Of a stretch of 24,117 nt of DNA, positions 8,689 to 13,439 are shown one piece after another (position 1 is the first letter of the stretch; each line of letters begins with the position of its first letter). The DNA is taken from IMG/VR virus record IMGVR_UViG_3300047359_000778, positions 1-24,117 of that record. One strand, written 5' to 3'. Position numbers and translations under genes: made by a program. The notes beneath the pieces were generated by a model. It did not search any database. It was not told the DNA's origin and saw only the letters and a program-made list of their open reading frames with translations. The DNA is from a virus.

Positions 8689-9741
8689 TTATAATATCAT
8701 CGAAAACAGTAGTGCCTTCTTTTTACTTACCAATTCATCTTGCACTGATCCGCCATTGATGAAATATAAGCTAGAGCCTGCCGCACCTTCTGCTTTACTG
8801 TATAATTTAATACCATCTCCTGGAGCATCCGGATTGGCTGTATCCGCATCTACACCAAAGTTTGGTATACCTCCGCCGCCTGTTCCATCATCATCTTGAT
8901 ATGGACCTTGTGGAATATACAAAACGTCATTGATTTGTACATTACCCGTTCCAGGTGCGCTTAAAACTAAATCTGCATTACTTGATGTAGTTTCGATTGT
9001 TGTGTCTTGAATTCTTAAATGCTGTAGCTCTGCTCTGTTATTAAAGAACTTTGCCGCTGGTGTATTATCAATAGTAAATTCAATAGCACTTTCGTCTATT
9101 GCAAATGCATCACTATCATGTACAACAACAAACGTGTCTAATGATTCAATTTTGTTTTGGAATTTACCAACAAAGAAGCCATCTACATAATCAACAACAC
9201 CTTTTGCATTTACTAATGTATCATGTTGATTTGCTTTTAATACTGGGTTAACAGTAAAGTCAACTAATGAACCGTCATACTCAAATATTTGTTTTTCATA
9301 ATCTGTACAACCTTCTACAGTAACAATACCAGTACCGTCATTAATTAATTTAAGATCAGCACCGCCTGTTTGTATTCTTGATGTTCTAAGATCAACTATA
9401 GTTCCTGTTGACGGACTACCTGTTCTACCTATGAATACTGGATCAGCAAGTCCTTGCTCATCGTATACCCAAAATGCATCACTTCCACCTCTGTCAATTT
9501 GTATACCTGCAACATCACCTTCGGAGTTGTTTACTACTCCTCCTGACACGCCGCCTTGGTTTACTGTAACAAACGGATCATCTACTACAAGAGTAGAACT
9601 ATTGATAATAGTTTGATCACCATCAACTTCTAAGTCGCCAATGATTTTTACTTTACCATCAGTGCCTGGATCGAGTCTAATCTCTCCACCGTCAGTGACT
9701 GAAATTTTATAGTCGCCATCTATATTTAAAAACTTTGACAT
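8689..9741 (-). CDS. Fibre-like virion structural protein (350 aa)
   Basis: The N-terminal part contains IIGDLEVDGDQTIINSSTLV and VDDPFVTVNQG. This resembles the GDLTVxGTTTTVNSTTVxVDDP module found in many phage fibre and neck proteins. Around residue 250 a copy of the fibre repeat occurs (TTIETTSSNADLVLSAPGTG), the same unit that is repeated about twelve times in the 1706-aa protein. The C-terminus (SLYFINGGSVQDELVSKKKA) looks like a conserved end module of marine phage fibres. The start ATG directly abuts the TAG of the preceding gene, indicating translational coupling. It is probably a short fibre or a connector for the larger fibres. Confidence 0.8.
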   Translation of the reverse strand: MSKFLNIDGDYKISVTDGGEIRLDPGTDGKVKIIGDLEVDGDQTIINSSTLVVDDPFVTVNQGGVSGGVVNNSEGDVAGIQIDRGGSDAFWVYDEQGLADPVFIGRTGSPSTGTIVDLRTSRIQTGGADLKLINDGTGIVTVEGCTDYEKQIFEYDGSLVDFTVNPVLKANQHDTLVNAKGVVDYVDGFFVGKFQNKIESLDTFVVVHDSDAFAIDESAIEFTIDNTPAAKFFNNRAELQHLRIQDTTIETTSSNADLVLSAPGTGNVQINDVLYIPQGPYQDDDGTGGGGIPNFGVDADTANPDAPGDGIKLYSKAEGAAGSSLYFINGGSVQDELVSKKKALLFSMIL

Positions 9742-10107
9742 CTATAGCTTTCCTGTTAATATTAATACATTGGTTGTAGAATCATTATCTAAATGCCAAG
9801 TATATTCTTTGTTTGTAAAGTCATTCATAATGTTGTTGACTATTGAAGCAATATACACAAACGCTGAACTGTTTAATACAAATCCAAGAATAGACATTTC
9901 ATTGTCTAGTAATTGTTCTGTATGTTTGTTAACTAATTCACACACGCCTTGATTTCCTTCTCCGTCTTCAACTTTAAACTTTGTATTGCTAAGTTGCTCT
10001 AAAACAGCACCATGAGGAACTGCTTCAGAGCTTCCAATTTTTACTGAAACAACCAGGTCTTTTAGATTCTTTAAAAGTTCCCAAAAAACATTTACTGGAT
10101 GTCCCAT
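9742..10107 (-). CDS. Hypothetical structural-region protein (121 aa)
   Basis: I do not recognise this family. It begins MGHPVNVFWELLKNLKDLVV and has a mixed alpha/beta pattern with a hydrophobic stretch near residues 75-90 (SILGFVLNSSAFVYIASIV) too polar in its flanks to be called a membrane helix with confidence. It lies 11 bases after the 149-aa gene, with AAGGAC upstream of the ATG, and its TAG touches the next ATG, so all three genes are probably translated from one late mRNA. A small virion or assembly protein is the most reasonable guess from position. Confidence 0.65.
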   Translation of the reverse strand: MGHPVNVFWELLKNLKDLVVSVKIGSSEAVPHGAVLEQLSNTKFKVEDGEGNQGVCELVNKHTEQLLDNEMSILGFVLNSSAFVYIASIVNNIMNDFTNKEYTWHLDNDSTTNVLILTGKL

Positions 10108-10118
10108 TACACTAGTCC

Positions 10119-10568
10119 TTATGCGTCTTCTGTGAAGTCGTCGTCATCAGTACCAATTAGTGTGTTATCGTCACCAGCTTCTTCAACTTGTGCCGCTCCA
10201 TCTGCTGTAGATGCCGCAAAGTTCCATGGAACACTTTTTCCATCATAAGCGTTTGCGCCTGTTGCACTTGGTGCTGACAATGTTGCTTTACGTCCAGAAA
10301 TTTTACTTACTGTGTATGTTTCTTCATCATCCATTTTGAATGATATTGACATTTCACCTGCCGCTAATGCCGCTGGTAATTTATCAGTTGTTAGTACACA
10401 AGTAAATTCGCCGCCTGTGCCAATTTCTTCACATACAAATTTCTTTGAAGCTTTTTGCTTTACAATATAACCTTCTTTAACTGCTGTGCCGTTATGAAAG
10501 TTTACTTTGATTTCAGATCCGCCTGCTGTAGGTTCGCTGAATAATCTTTTATTAAGTGGTCTTCCCAT
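10119..10568 (-). CDS. Hypothetical virion-associated protein with acidic tail (149 aa)
   Basis: The N-terminus MGRPLNKRLF is of a type I associate with small conserved proteins of marine T4-like phages. This is memory of similar proteins, not a search result. Strand-rich repeats follow (EIKVNFHNGTAVKEGYIVKQ, KKFVCEEIGTGGEFTCVL). The C-terminus is strongly acidic (DDNTLIGTDDDDFTEDA). A strong AGGAG site precedes the ATG. It is the first gene of the left structural operon, with its own late promoter about 100 bases upstream and a structured leader. The exact function is unknown. Confidence 0.7.
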   Translation of the reverse strand: MGRPLNKRLFSEPTAGGSEIKVNFHNGTAVKEGYIVKQKASKKFVCEEIGTGGEFTCVLTTDKLPAALAAGEMSISFKMDDEETYTVSKISGRKATLSAPSATGANAYDGKSVPWNFAASTADGAAQVEEAGDDNTLIGTDDDDFTEDA

Positions 10569-10666
10569 TTTTTTTCTCCTATTTAAGTAGTCCTATGCCC
10601 GTTCTATGAGCTACGCTGTGGGTTAAACAGCATAAGTCCGCCTTGCGGCACACTATTTGACATATG

Positions 10667-10674
10667 TATTTATC
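10667..10674 (-). promoter_or_regulatory. T4-type late promoter with structured leader
   Basis: The minus strand reads GATAAATACATATG, fitting the NATAAATA late box. It sits just downstream of the ncRNA terminator and 99 bases before the ATG of the 149-aa gene. The leader can form two hairpins: CCGC-AAG-GCGG, and ATGCTGT paired with ACAGCGT across a 7-nt loop. Confidence 0.6.
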
Positions 10675-10680
10675 ATAAAA

Positions 10681-10714
10681 GAAAAAAGCTCGACACAATT
10701 AAGTATCGAGCTTT
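10681..10714 (-). terminator. Intrinsic terminator of the ncRNA
   Basis: On the minus strand a perfect 9-bp stem, AAAGCTCGA / TCGAGCTTT, with a 12-nt loop, is followed by a TTTTTTC tail. It ends the RNA that starts near 10924 and insulates the downstream structural operon. Confidence 0.85.
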
Positions 10715-10924
10715 AAATAAAAGTGATAGGTTGGACTTCAGAATACCAACAATGCGGTTAACAGTCTGTCTGTTTTTCCCGCAAACCTCGCATCAAACAG
10801 TTACGTTCGAAAATACATCTCCATGTCTCCACAGTCATGCAATGCCACTACAGCTACTCGTCAAGTTCGGTGCCTGTAACACCTCTTCCTTGCACTATCT
10901 AAGTTACACCGTCGTCTAACTTAT
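10681..10924 (-). ncRNA. Structured small RNA of about 240 nt, family not recognised
   Basis: The region has no convincing reading frame but has a near-consensus promoter at one end and an intrinsic terminator at the other. It is visibly richer in G+C than its AT-rich flanks. Local hairpins on the minus strand: UAAGUUA/UAACUUA at 10900-10923 (the 5' end); GGUG/CACC with a 7-nt loop; ACAU-GGAG-AUGU; a two-part stem UGCGG/CCGCA enclosing AACAG/CUGUU at 10753-10783; GUUGG/CCAAC at 10730-10750; and the terminator stem. It does not look like tRNA, tmRNA, 6S or RNase P RNA by their key motifs. It lies directly downstream of a porin gene, so a role as a regulatory RNA acting on host or phage mRNAs is a reasonable inference. 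Confidence 0.75.
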
Positions 10925-10930
10925 GTACTT

Positions 10931-10959
10931 AATATAACAAACTATTAAGCAGAAGTCAA
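10931..10959 (-). promoter_or_regulatory. Sigma-70 type promoter of the ncRNA
   Basis: On the minus strand TTGACT (10954-10959), a 17-base spacer and TATATT (10931-10936) match the bacterial housekeeping consensus closely. Transcription should start near 10924. Unlike the surrounding late boxes it could be read by unmodified host RNA polymerase early in infection. It overlaps the 3' end of the possible 32-aa ORF. Confidence 0.8.
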
Positions 10960-11043
10960 CCTCTTTTTTAATAAAAAGTTAACTTTTTTTATGTGGTGCT
11001 GTTTAATGATTTGTTGAAAGCACCAAAGCGTGTAATTATCCAT
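10945..11043 (-). CDS. Possible 32-aa basic peptide
   Basis: ATG at 11041-11043 is preceded by GAGGAG at an ideal 6-base spacing. The frame runs 32 codons to TAA at 10945-10947. The peptide starts MDNYTLWCFQQIIKQHHIKK and ends KKRLTSA. It is basic, with an amphipathic pattern and no signal peptide. A hairpin GGTGCT/AGCACC lies within its codons. It lies between the porin and the ncRNA, and its stop falls between the -35 and -10 of the ncRNA promoter. The strong ribosome site is the main support. No family is recognised. Confidence 0.45.
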   Translation of the reverse strand: MDNYTLWCFQQIIKQHHIKKVNFLLKKRLTSA

Positions 11044-11118
11044 AACACTCTCCTCGTTAAAGGGTTAAGTGCGTTCCTTCGCTTATGCTACTCCCGGCCT
11101 ATTGGCTGAACGTAATAT

Positions 11119-11126
11119 TATTTATT
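11119..11126 (-). promoter_or_regulatory. Possible late promoter box at the porin stop codon
   Basis: The minus strand reads AATAAATAAT across the porin stop. It fits NATAAATA, but the region is very AT-rich and a chance match is possible. It would give a leader of about 70 nt for the 32-aa ORF. Confidence 0.3.
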
Positions 11127-12141
11127 AAAACTTATACTTAAGAGTAGCTTTAATACTGTCATCGCGTTCAGTTGTTACACCTGTCCATACACTTGTATTA
11201 GTAACATCTGTATGATAGTAGAATCCTGTTTCTACAGGTCCTGCTGTATGTACTACACCAAGATATGTACCATCAGTTCCAAGGTCATCATTTAATACTT
11301 TATGTGCTGTAAACATTACTTCTTTAGAATAGTTGTACATAACACCAAAGTCAACACGATCATCTTTTGCTAATCCTGTATTTTTGTCGTCCCATACTTC
11401 AACACCAAATCCTACCGGAATGCCATATCTACGCAATACTTGCGAACCTACAGCAACACCTTGTTGATTTAATTCATTGTTAGTGATGTTATTTTTATTA
11501 CCAATTTGCATGTATGATAGTTCTGCATAACCTGCTAAACTTACAGTACCACCTAAGTATATTGTACTTGCTTCTGCATCATAACCTACAGCAAAACCAA
11601 ATGGTAGATCTCTTTTTAGTCTATGTTCATCAAAGTCAAATTCATTATTGTTGTTCCATCCGCCAAAAGTAAGTACGATCTTTTCGTTATGATCAATTCT
11701 ACTATTAGCTTCTGTAATAATAAGTGGTAAACCAATTTTAGCTGTCTTAGCAAATCCTAATCTTTGTGCATCTGTTTCGCCTACATAAAGTCTAGTATTT
11801 CCTAAACCAACACCAATTTGTTTTTCAACAATAGTATTGTTTAATGTTGTGTCTAATGAATATTGAGAATCAAATCTAGTACTTGCTCCTGCCCAATCAA
11901 TAGGACCGTCTAGTTCAGATTGTAGTCCTACAAACACTTCTGCTCGTGTATCAAAATCTGAATCGTAAGTATCTGGGTCGTAAAATACTTCAATGTTTCC
12001 GTTAACAAACATTCCTGTTGGTAACGTTGGTGCTGACTTTTCTAAATCAGTAACTCTTTCTTCAAGAGTCTTTGTGTCTGCAAATGCTTGAAATGATATC
12101 AAAGCGAAAAGAGCAGACAGAATAACTATAGTCCGTTTCAT
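11125..12141 (-). CDS. Phage-encoded outer membrane porin-like beta-barrel protein (338 aa)
   Basis: The protein has a textbook Sec signal peptide (MKRTIVILSALFALISFQAF, cleavage expected after AFA at residue 21). A short coiled-coil-like segment follows (TLEERVTDLEKS), then about 300 residues of amphipathic strands with aromatic girdle patterns. It ends in LKYKF, a C-terminal Phe as required by the BAM machinery for outer membrane insertion. Strand-like blocks include TRLYVGETDAQRLGF and VDFGVMYNYSK. This predicts a general porin placed in the host outer membrane, not a virion protein. The GGAAA-type ribosome site lies before the ATG. It sits between the gp23 terminator and the ncRNA. Possible roles are solute uptake for the infected cell, receptor replacement or superinfection exclusion. 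These are inference. Confidence 0.85.
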   Translation of the reverse strand: MKRTIVILSALFALISFQAFADTKTLEERVTDLEKSAPTLPTGMFVNGNIEVFYDPDTYDSDFDTRAEVFVGLQSELDGPIDWAGASTRFDSQYSLDTTLNNTIVEKQIGVGLGNTRLYVGETDAQRLGFAKTAKIGLPLIITEANSRIDHNEKIVLTFGGWNNNNEFDFDEHRLKRDLPFGFAVGYDAEASTIYLGGTVSLAGYAELSYMQIGNKNNITNNELNQQGVAVGSQVLRRYGIPVGFGVEVWDDKNTGLAKDDRVDFGVMYNYSKEVMFTAHKVLNDDLGTDGTYLGVVHTAGPVETGFYYHTDVTNTSVWTGVTTERDDSIKATLKYKF

Positions 12142-12180
12142 TTTTATTTTCCTTTCGAAAATAGTTAGGGGTTTCTTCTG

Positions 12181-12207
12181 CGGTATTTAACCATATACCG
12201 AATGGTT
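12181..12207 (-). promoter_or_regulatory. Nested inverted repeats in the porin leader (possible RNA pseudoknot or operator)
   Basis: On the minus strand four blocks follow each other: AACCAT, T, CGGTAT, ATGGTT, AA, ATACCG. AACCAT pairs with ATGGTT, and CGGTAT pairs with ATACCG, each 6 bp and perfect. The two helices interlock as in an H-type pseudoknot or as mutually exclusive hairpins. The element lies about 40 bases upstream of the porin ATG and directly after the gp23 terminator. Confidence 0.5.
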
Positions 12208-12213
12208 AGCCAT

Positions 12214-12240
12214 AAAAAAAGGGCGACCTAAGCCGCCCTT
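12214..12240 (-). terminator. Intrinsic terminator of the head operon after gene 23
   Basis: On the minus strand AAGGGCG / CGCCCTT forms a 7-bp GC-rich stem around an 8-nt loop, followed by seven or more T residues in all. It is a classic rho-independent terminator 27 bases after the gp23 stop. Confidence 0.9.
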
Positions 12241-12243
12241 TAG

Positions 12244-12260
12244 TATAGTTAAAAACTATA
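12244..12260 (-). repeat. Short hairpin just before the gene 23 terminator
   Basis: TATAGTT and AACTATA form a perfect 7-bp stem with a 3-nt loop, between the gp23 stop codon and the terminator stem. It may protect the abundant capsid mRNA from 3' exonucleases. Confidence 0.5.
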
Positions 12261-12266
12261 TTCTGC

Positions 12267-13439
12267 TTACGAGAATGATAAGTTGTTGCTATTCACTTCA
12301 ACTTTTTCAACGTAATCAGCCGCGTTACCTAAAGATGACGCTGTGTTGTTTAACTCAACATATCCGTATCTAGTCATAAATGATACAACTGGTTCGAATG
12401 AAGTTGGGTCTAGTACAACACCTGAGCTCATTAGCGGAATGTATGGGCAATAGAATGCTGCCGCATCTGATTCACTTGAGCCTTTGTAGCCAACTAGTAC
12501 ATCGTCGTCTGCCGCATATGTATTAACATAGATCTTCATAGCATTGTTTAATGTACCAACCATTTTAGTATTAGTTGGTGCTTCAAACGTACCTTCAGTT
12601 GTTCTTGCAAACGCTGAAGTTGTTGCTGATTGAAGGACAGTTAAAATTGCTGGAGAAACAACAGCCCAGTTACCTGCGCCTCTACGTGTTCTTTGTGCAA
12701 TTCTGTTTGCCGCTCTATTAATTAATACAGCTAATGCCGCATGTTCGTCACCGACGAATGTTGCAGTACCACTTACACCAGCTTGGTTGTAAGTATCAGT
12801 ACCTGTACCTGCTAATGATGCTAATGAAGTTAATACTTCTTGATCAATCTCAGCTGTAATCTCTTGTGCAAGAGCTGCCATGATTTCTGCTTCAACATCA
12901 ATACCGTGTTGTGACTGCGCATCTTGTGCAGATTCAAACGTCCAGCGAGCTGACAATTTACGTGTCTTAGCTTCTACTGTTTGTTTTAGAATCTGAATGC
13001 TTAGTCTGTTACCAGCAACACCTTCTTTTGATGCTGTTGGATCTGCTTTACCATTTGCATTACCTGAATAGCCTTCAGCAATTTTGAATGGGCTTAAAGC
13101 CTCTTCGCCTGCTGCCGCTGATCCGCCTGCTGTACCTGTAAAGGCATCAGCGTAACGTACTCGTAATGTGTGGATTTGACCCACTGGTCCTGTCATAGGC
13201 TGAACACCAACGATCTCGTTCGCGATCACAGTTGGCATTACACGTCTAATAACTGGTAAAATAACTCTATTTAGAGTTGCTACGTTGCCTGCAGAAGTTG
13301 CACCTGCTGTTGCACTCTCTGACAAATACTTTCTAGTATTCTCAAGTGTTGCTTCCATAACAGATTTCTTATTTCCTGTTAATCCTTCAACTAGTGCACC
13401 TTTGGTCTCCTGCCAGCGACTTTCTAGTAGTTCTGACAT
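12267..13439 (-). CDS. 23: Major capsid protein gp23
   Basis: This is the main shell protein of the T4-type head. Diagnostic motifs are VQPMTGPVGQIHTLRVRYAD (residues about 84-103), which matches the conserved block used to survey g23, and the C-terminal VLDPTSFEPVVSFMTRYGYV. At 390 aa it is clearly shorter than T4 gp23 (521 aa). This suggests loss of a surface insertion domain and a compact HK97-type fold. A possible gp21 cleavage site is L-S-E at residues 39-41 (cut before SATAG), matching the (L/I)-x-E rule, which would remove a 41-residue propeptide. AAGGAGAT precedes the ATG. It follows gp22 by 16 bases and is the last gene before a strong terminator. Confidence 0.95.
   Translation of the reverse strand: MSELLESRWQETKGALVEGLTGNKKSVMEATLENTRKYLSESATAGATSAGNVATLNRVILPVIRRVMPTVIANEIVGVQPMTGPVGQIHTLRVRYADAFTGTAGGSAAAGEEALSPFKIAEGYSGNANGKADPTASKEGVAGNRLSIQILKQTVEAKTRKLSARWTFESAQDAQSQHGIDVEAEIMAALAQEITAEIDQEVLTSLASLAGTGTDTYNQAGVSGTATFVGDEHAALAVLINRAANRIAQRTRRGAGNWAVVSPAILTVLQSATTSAFARTTEGTFEAPTNTKMVGTLNNAMKIYVNTYAADDDVLVGYKGSSESDAAAFYCPYIPLMSSGVVLDPTSFEPVVSFMTRYGYVELNNTASSLGNAADYVEKVEVNSNNLSFS

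Follow-up and report, generated by a model that had tools for sequence, protein, structure and literature searches.

The closest described system is the manA RNA (Rfam RF01745), which Weinberg et al. (2010, PMC2864571), in the part of their paper devoted to it, located in potential 5' UTRs from marine metagenomes and T4-like cyanophages and presented as a riboswitch candidate with a complex conserved fold. In the passages that mention manA, PMC9964418, PMC12197685 and PMC10665884 call it "cis-regulatory" and report no experiments on it, PMC7779021 and PMC7657543 concern its structure, and PMC3692125 (citing Rfam) states that it is often adjacent to tRNAs. In the excerpts consulted, mainly from open-access articles, we found no experiment on the function of manA and no description of it as an RNA gene endowed with promoter and terminator of its own. 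Stand-alone RNA genes are known from T4-like marine phages, namely a cyanophage CfrI antisense RNA, phage tmRNA and phage tRNAs (PMC12197685 and PMC9004378, in their passages on these RNAs). The RNA described here probably resembles these in being a gene of its own, and some manA copies adjoin tRNAs, but it is of a different kind from tmRNA and tRNAs, having no match to either (ARAGORN found 0 such genes in the window). The premise since 2010 has been that manA controls the next gene, and the stand-alone arrangement reported below challenges this cis-regulatory reading. SreA/SreB and Rli55 of Listeria and EutX of Enterococcus are free RNAs that derive from riboswitch-like elements, with known ligands and partners; the likeness, drawn by description only, is that of a fold of riboswitch type, closed by a terminator and able to function as a free RNA.

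The window (the whole stretch of DNA analysed) is a virus record of 24,117 bases from a T4-like phage, with genes for the portal protein gp20, the prohead protease and the major capsid protein gp23, all on the minus strand. On this strand one reads in succession a porin-like ORF, a glutamine riboswitch, a 32-aa ORF, the promoter, the RNA, the terminator, a late box, a freshwater-2 leader and orf149:

11068..11114, minus strand: glutamine riboswitch (RF01739), upstream neighbour of the RNA; Rfam scan 43.3 bits, gathering 35
10945..11043, minus strand: 32-aa ORF (MDNYTLWCFQQIIKQHHIKKVNFLLKKRLTSA) that follows the glutamine riboswitch and overlaps, at its 3' end, the -35 hexamer of the RNA promoter
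10931..10959, minus strand: sigma-70-type promoter TTGACT-17-TATATT with extended -10 TG; pattern match, conserved in relatives
10681..10924, minus strand: predicted stand-alone transcript of about 244 nt, its ends deduced from promoter and terminator
10720..10922, minus strand: divergent manA RNA domain (RF01745, model positions 1-192); 45.0 bits, E 2.3e-10
10685..10714, minus strand: intrinsic terminator, 12-bp stem, 6-nt loop, T-run to about 10681; fold against shuffles, conservation
10667..10674, minus strand: T4-type late box GATAAATA, lying beyond the RNA and belonging to the downstream gene; pattern match and conservation
10566..10652, minus strand: freshwater-2 RNA (RF02980), leader of orf149, a neighbour outside the RNA gene; 67.7 bits, gathering 49.9
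10119..10568, minus strand: orf149, the downstream ORF of 149 aa, without Pfam or PHROG match

The RNA unit at 10959-10681 on the minus strand is indeed composed as the first-pass annotation had described it, of a promoter, a structured non-coding stretch and a terminator. The promoter TTGACT-17-TATATT is present at 10959-10931, with TG before the -10, although it cannot be called the best host-type promoter in the window (minus 19360 reaches 12/12, minus 13484 reaches 11/12 and several others 10/12), and promoter-like sites show no excess in 9000-13000 (9 found, 13.2 expected in shuffles). We consider it credible because it is conserved: 81 of the 92 variant relatives among the matches listed have a promoter of at least 10/12 in the 80 nt that precede the RNA, against 40 of 2000 random windows. 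The nested hairpins are likewise there, 10681-10924 folding at -73.2 kcal/mol (z -3.35, with 1 of 200 shuffles equally stable). The terminator has the announced hairpin and T-run, with a stem of 12 bp instead of the 9 bp first counted (-17.9 kcal/mol; 0 of 200 shuffles equally stable). The G+C enrichment exists (44.3% at 10720-10922 against 37.4% for the whole window) but is mild, since 8.4% of 203-nt windows reach an equal G+C. That the RNA lacks a good reading frame agrees with the lengths of its 92 relatives (among the matches listed), which spread 32/33/27 over 0/1/2 modulo 3. Frames of 26-31 codons inside the RNA are common to the closest relatives (L017, L031 and L066), and we have taken these as chance carried by near-identity; the coding reading was rejected on the frames and lengths just described. 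The idea that every neighbouring unit uses late boxes has to be abandoned, as [TAG]ATAAATA lies within 160 nt of only 6 of 16 tested starts. The order of promoter, structured RNA and terminator inside a late region does hold, and recurs in sister phages.

The RNA had at first been assigned to no known family. This no longer stands: a permissive Rfam covariance scan of 601 bases matches it to manA, a match that a default Rfam scan misses. At 45.0 bits the window copy falls below the gathering cut-off of RF01745 (55.2), and its alignment spans the whole model at a significant E (2.3e-10 for the 601 bases, 2.2e-12 for the whole record). Since it is under the cut-off, we term it a divergent manA-type RNA and not a plain Rfam member; on the strength of its sequence we regard it as belonging to a divergent, full-length branch of manA. 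None of 14 control genomes matches the manA model. Other Rfam matches over the RNA (VrrA at E 0.29, RUF1, BsrF and the L10 leader) were set aside as chance. Among sister contigs, taken as the best 80 of 269 viral contigs encoding an orf149 relative, 39 have a manA match at E<=1 (21/40 and 18/40) and 13 one over the gathering cut-off. The manA of phage Mosig scores 64.0 bits, above the cut-off; a match of only 12.3 bits in Melnitz was not counted. By blastn, the window stretch recovers over the RNA a 39-nt piece in Mosig, and Mosig's own manA copy used as query returns no further manA phage.

What marks the window's branch is the core UAGUGCAAGGAA, in place of the core GAGUGACUGAAUAAACUU of canonical manA. 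With the published family it shares the full-length model match, the helices (including the helix closing the 5' and 3' parts, a pseudoknot in the family model) and the occurrence in T4-like marine phages; it differs in its core, in its score under the gathering cut-off and in the terminator and separate late box that stand before the next gene, where a plain 5' UTR would be expected. To compare the two classes, we used 92 variant and 96 canonical copies, samples chosen by these core patterns from at least 120 stretches per class, after dropping copies cut by contig ends or identical in RNA and flanks (near-copies remain). The Rfam model matches 34 of 50 variant records at E<=0.01, 8 of them over the cut-off, and 48 of 50 canonical records, all over the cut-off at 85-197 bits (both among the matches listed); the remaining copies were assigned by nhmmer only (116 variant and 120 canonical matches in 239 loci). 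The divergent branch being mostly under the Rfam cut-off, annotation by cut-off would miss it.

Conservation of the fold was assessed on 63 non-redundant variant copies drawn from 122 copies, seven loci that were cut short or offset having been excluded beforehand. RNAalifold gives 30 pairs on this alignment, 23 with changes on both sides. The consensus helices kept comprise 37 pairs in 8 helices, with 91.1% of cells paired (70.7 when shuffled), and their covariation score of 0.561 is reached by 0 of 500 shuffles (0.186 when shuffled). Changes on both sides are seen in 29 of the 37 pairs and slid versions score at most 0.157, two controls that favour the structure because it was partly derived from the same 63-row alignment. 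The 5' hairpin was left out of the covariation count because its register shifts between subgroups. Of three stems expected to covary, UGCGG/CCGCA (helix 7) and GUUGG/CCAAC (helix 8) do so, and AACAG/CUGUU falls outside the structure counted. These results support a fold conserved in manA relatives.

The arrangement of the window recurs at sister loci. Upstream sequence is sufficient in 79 of the best 80 (of 269) orf149 loci, and manA lies within 400 nt upstream in 34 of them. A late box stands 96-107 nt ahead of the ATG in every one of these 34, and in 33 an intrinsic terminator separates manA from orf149 (the single exception is L017). These terminators differ in sequence. The window thus departs from the usual 5'-UTR placement of manA, a terminator and a late box separating it from the next ORF. 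The late box is kept in 37 of the 45 loci of the same set without manA within 400 nt, and 11 of these 45 have manA farther upstream; in L037 and L038 manA is about 10 kb from orf149. In L005, whose flanking proteins are 99-100% identical to those of the window, the stretch with glutamine riboswitch and manA is missing, and the terminator, late box and orf149 are kept. In the wider samples (among the matches listed), the promoter of at least 10/12 is found in 86 of 96 canonical copies, in addition to the variant copies already mentioned, so that an own promoter is a property of both classes. Terminators, called by perfect stems only, are common in the variant class, where 50 of 92 copies have one in the next 64 nt or so (94 of 2000 random windows), and uncommon in the canonical class (only 14 of 96 copies), again among the matches listed; after stop codons the same rule finds one in 3 of 16 windows, a rate above that of random windows but from too small a sample to be used. 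In most of L423-L432 (ten cyanophages), a terminator-like hairpin of the upstream unit carries, by eye, a -35 TTGACA in its loop, directly before the manA -10.

The genes around manA are diverse. Downstream of variant copies, among the matches listed, orf149 relatives (28 by clustering, 32 by tblastn) and the ssDNA-binding protein gp32 (20 and 23) are found along with scattered others, and none of the 23 variant copies before gp32 has a terminator by the strict rule; downstream of canonical copies we find gp32 (19), transaldolase (14), ThyX (9) and others. Pfam confirms one representative each of gp32 (in both classes), transaldolase, ThyX, rubrerythrin, peroxiredoxin and cold-shock protein, as well as Hsp20 downstream genes of both classes, and PHROGs also confirm the gp32, transaldolase and ThyX representatives. 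Ten cyanophage records (nine titled complete genome) and Mosig hold exactly one manA match each. In these phages manA follows gp23 in P-HM1, S-SSM5, P-RSM4 and MED4-213, as in the window, regA in P-SSM2, pstS in P-SSM4 and ferredoxin in P-SSM7. The gene that comes after manA is gp32 in P-HM2 (where annotated short ORFs overlap manA) and talC in P-RSM6, and in P-TIM68 a reverse-strand ORF lies between manA and talC. A terminator-like hairpin follows manA, by eye, in P-HM1, MED4-213, S-SSM5 and P-SSM7, and in Mosig manA ends 23 nt before the rubrerythrin ORF. A quickly built tree of the 92 variant RNAs requires no fewer than 22 changes of neighbour class (orf149, gp32, other) and 18 of terminator presence, whereas the gp32 copies come close to a single clade (3 changes). 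This tree is based on a short alignment and has weak support at 28 of its 89 inner branches, and change counts of this kind would be inflated by recombination. Nine of the 188 copies sampled among the matches listed (L135, L148, L264, L355, L350, L245, L340, L308 and L277, of which L264 and L355 are near-copies) have a tRNA gene that starts no more than about 14 nt from the end of manA, as does a weak copy from Marinifilum (L459, 28.8 bits).

This last copy comes from a scan of genome contigs, in which 6 of 59 stretches had an nhmmer match at E<=0.01: L491, L499, L494 and the weak L459 are manA-like, and L460 and L476 were dropped as short chance matches. The Rfam model finds manA in the genome of L491, and gives no match at E<=1 in those of L494 and L459. 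Core-pattern matches in Photobacterium had no nhmmer match; both Photobacterium genomes searched (L504 and L505) nevertheless contain a manA at another place (83.2 and 82.6 bits), some 250 nt ahead of the following ORF. One contig with a variant manA (L137) also carries, at 12888-13351, a permuted tmRNA of alphaproteobacterial type, which hints at an alphaproteobacterial host for that phage.

Several observations concern the surroundings of the RNA. The slot between gp23 and orf149 (L002-L081) is hypervariable, its length going from 165 to 1260 nt in the loci where gp23 and orf149 could both be located, and its content including RNAs, short ORFs, a NifU-like ORF (by eye, in L062) and others. 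The 338-aa ORF at 11125-12141 (minus) is porin-like by eye only, with a signal-peptide-like start; it has no match in Pfam, PHROG or the phage collection, and is also present in L002-L005, L023, L041, L049 and L069. Short ORFs, similar to the 32-aa ORF or different, follow the glutamine riboswitch in sister phages (those of L013, L032 and L061 resemble it), and a 73-nt piece of 10945-11114 matches a Melnitz stretch annotated as SsrA in four records. According to blastn, most of the sister loci (the best 80 of 269) retain the freshwater-2 leader, which is located behind the late box, and a literature search for this motif gave no paper. The twelve best-listed relatives of the window's gp23 (12267-13439, minus) share 67-71% identity with it and come from jumbo phages that infect Vibrio, Sinorhizobium and Pseudomonas, with no cyanophage among them. 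As manA is absent from the jumbo phages searched among these nearest relatives (Vibrio 2.275.O and Pseudomonas PA5oct), gp23 informs us on neither host nor context.

How should this arrangement be interpreted? One could see in manA a riboswitch whose expression platform is the terminator, a ligand deciding between a stop and read-through into the next gene, in line with its published candidacy and complex fold, with the terminator that directly follows 50 of 92 variant copies (among the matches listed) and with the gene that comes directly after manA in Mosig, P-HM2 and P-RSM6. We find this explanation unlikely, if worth keeping in mind. A terminator riboswitch is expected to pair a segment of its aptamer with an arm of the terminator, and the absence of such pairing counts against it: 44 distinct terminator arms have no cognate complementarity to the whole RNA (-8.19 kcal/mol for cognate and -8.27 for swapped duplexes), and show no special complementarity to their own manA as an antiterminator-type, transcriptional platform would. 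For the last 60 nt of manA, the cognate duplex is slightly lower (-6.73 against -6.28 kcal/mol swapped), a point against the reading as an RNA gene. At each of the 34 loci (from the best 80 of 269) a separate late box serves orf149, in the tRNA tandems no ORF follows manA at close range, and neighbours change while manA stays. The whole unit might also be a chance pair of promoter-like and terminator-like signals around an unexpressed or coding stretch, given that promoter-like sites in the region are not above shuffles and that short ORFs can be listed on both strands. This we hold to be very improbable indeed, in view of the covariation beyond shuffles and slides, the full-length manA homology, the relatives' lengths that keep no frame, and the recurrence of both signals.

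Another possibility is a general 5' leader, in which promoter and stable fold protect or boost middle-gene transcripts (gp32, transaldolase, ThyX, Hsp20), the terminator-bearing copies being remnants or decoys. The near-universal promoter of the sampled copies and the frequency of gp32, transaldolase and ThyX downstream of canonical ones would fit such a role. It is nonetheless an improbable account, because the terminators, placed after manA at 33 of the 34 sister loci in spite of their highly varied sequences, look selected and not decayed, and because the invariant core nucleotides and strong covariation exceed the needs of a mere stabilising stem.

We therefore lean, with reasonable though far from complete confidence, towards an autonomous non-coding RNA gene of a T4-like phage, likely acting in trans and not as a switch for the next gene. 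The lack of cognate complementarity, together with the independent late box, the tRNA tandems, the single copies and the changing neighbours, favours such a free RNA. In this scenario, a host-type sigma-70 promoter would start transcription at the first hairpin of the divergent manA RNA, an intrinsic terminator just after the fold would release an RNA of about 240 nt, and the downstream late gene would be served by its own late box and leader. The RNA would be made early, as judged from its type of promoter, and would act in trans, its partner being some protein or small molecule from either the host or the phage; in phage Melnitz, the relevant section of PMC9004378 counts sigma-70 promoters as early and TATAAAT as late. 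Against a universal version of the RNA gene, gp32, transaldolase or rubrerythrin genes follow other manA copies, most canonical copies have no terminator by the strict rule, and some of them have a hairpin just before the ATG, a possible riboswitch platform. Depending on the phage, the RNA may be cis-acting or a free molecule. A lead as to its partner could come from gp32 of T4, which regulates its own mRNA via a 5' pseudoknot and an unstructured leader: gp32 is among the commonest downstream genes in both classes (among the matches listed), and in the variant class its leader is AU-rich and 62-101 nt long. By analogy, this autoregulation is a possible clue, to be taken as a lead only.

The layout of the window suggests that a supposed gene switch, manA, can be an RNA gene in its own right. 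More tentatively, and conceding that the odds are somewhat against us, we propose that the whole family could be primarily an autonomous phage RNA gene and not a riboswitch, present once per phage under a promoter of its own, which would move from one intergenic site to another and be freed by a terminator or an adjoining tRNA. If this is true, marine T4-like phages would have in a trans-acting manA a dedicated and widespread RNA that serves as regulator, decoy or scaffold, its 5'-UTR placements would be secondary, and, if manA is an RNA gene, the search should shift from ligands related to downstream pathways to binding partners and targets in trans.
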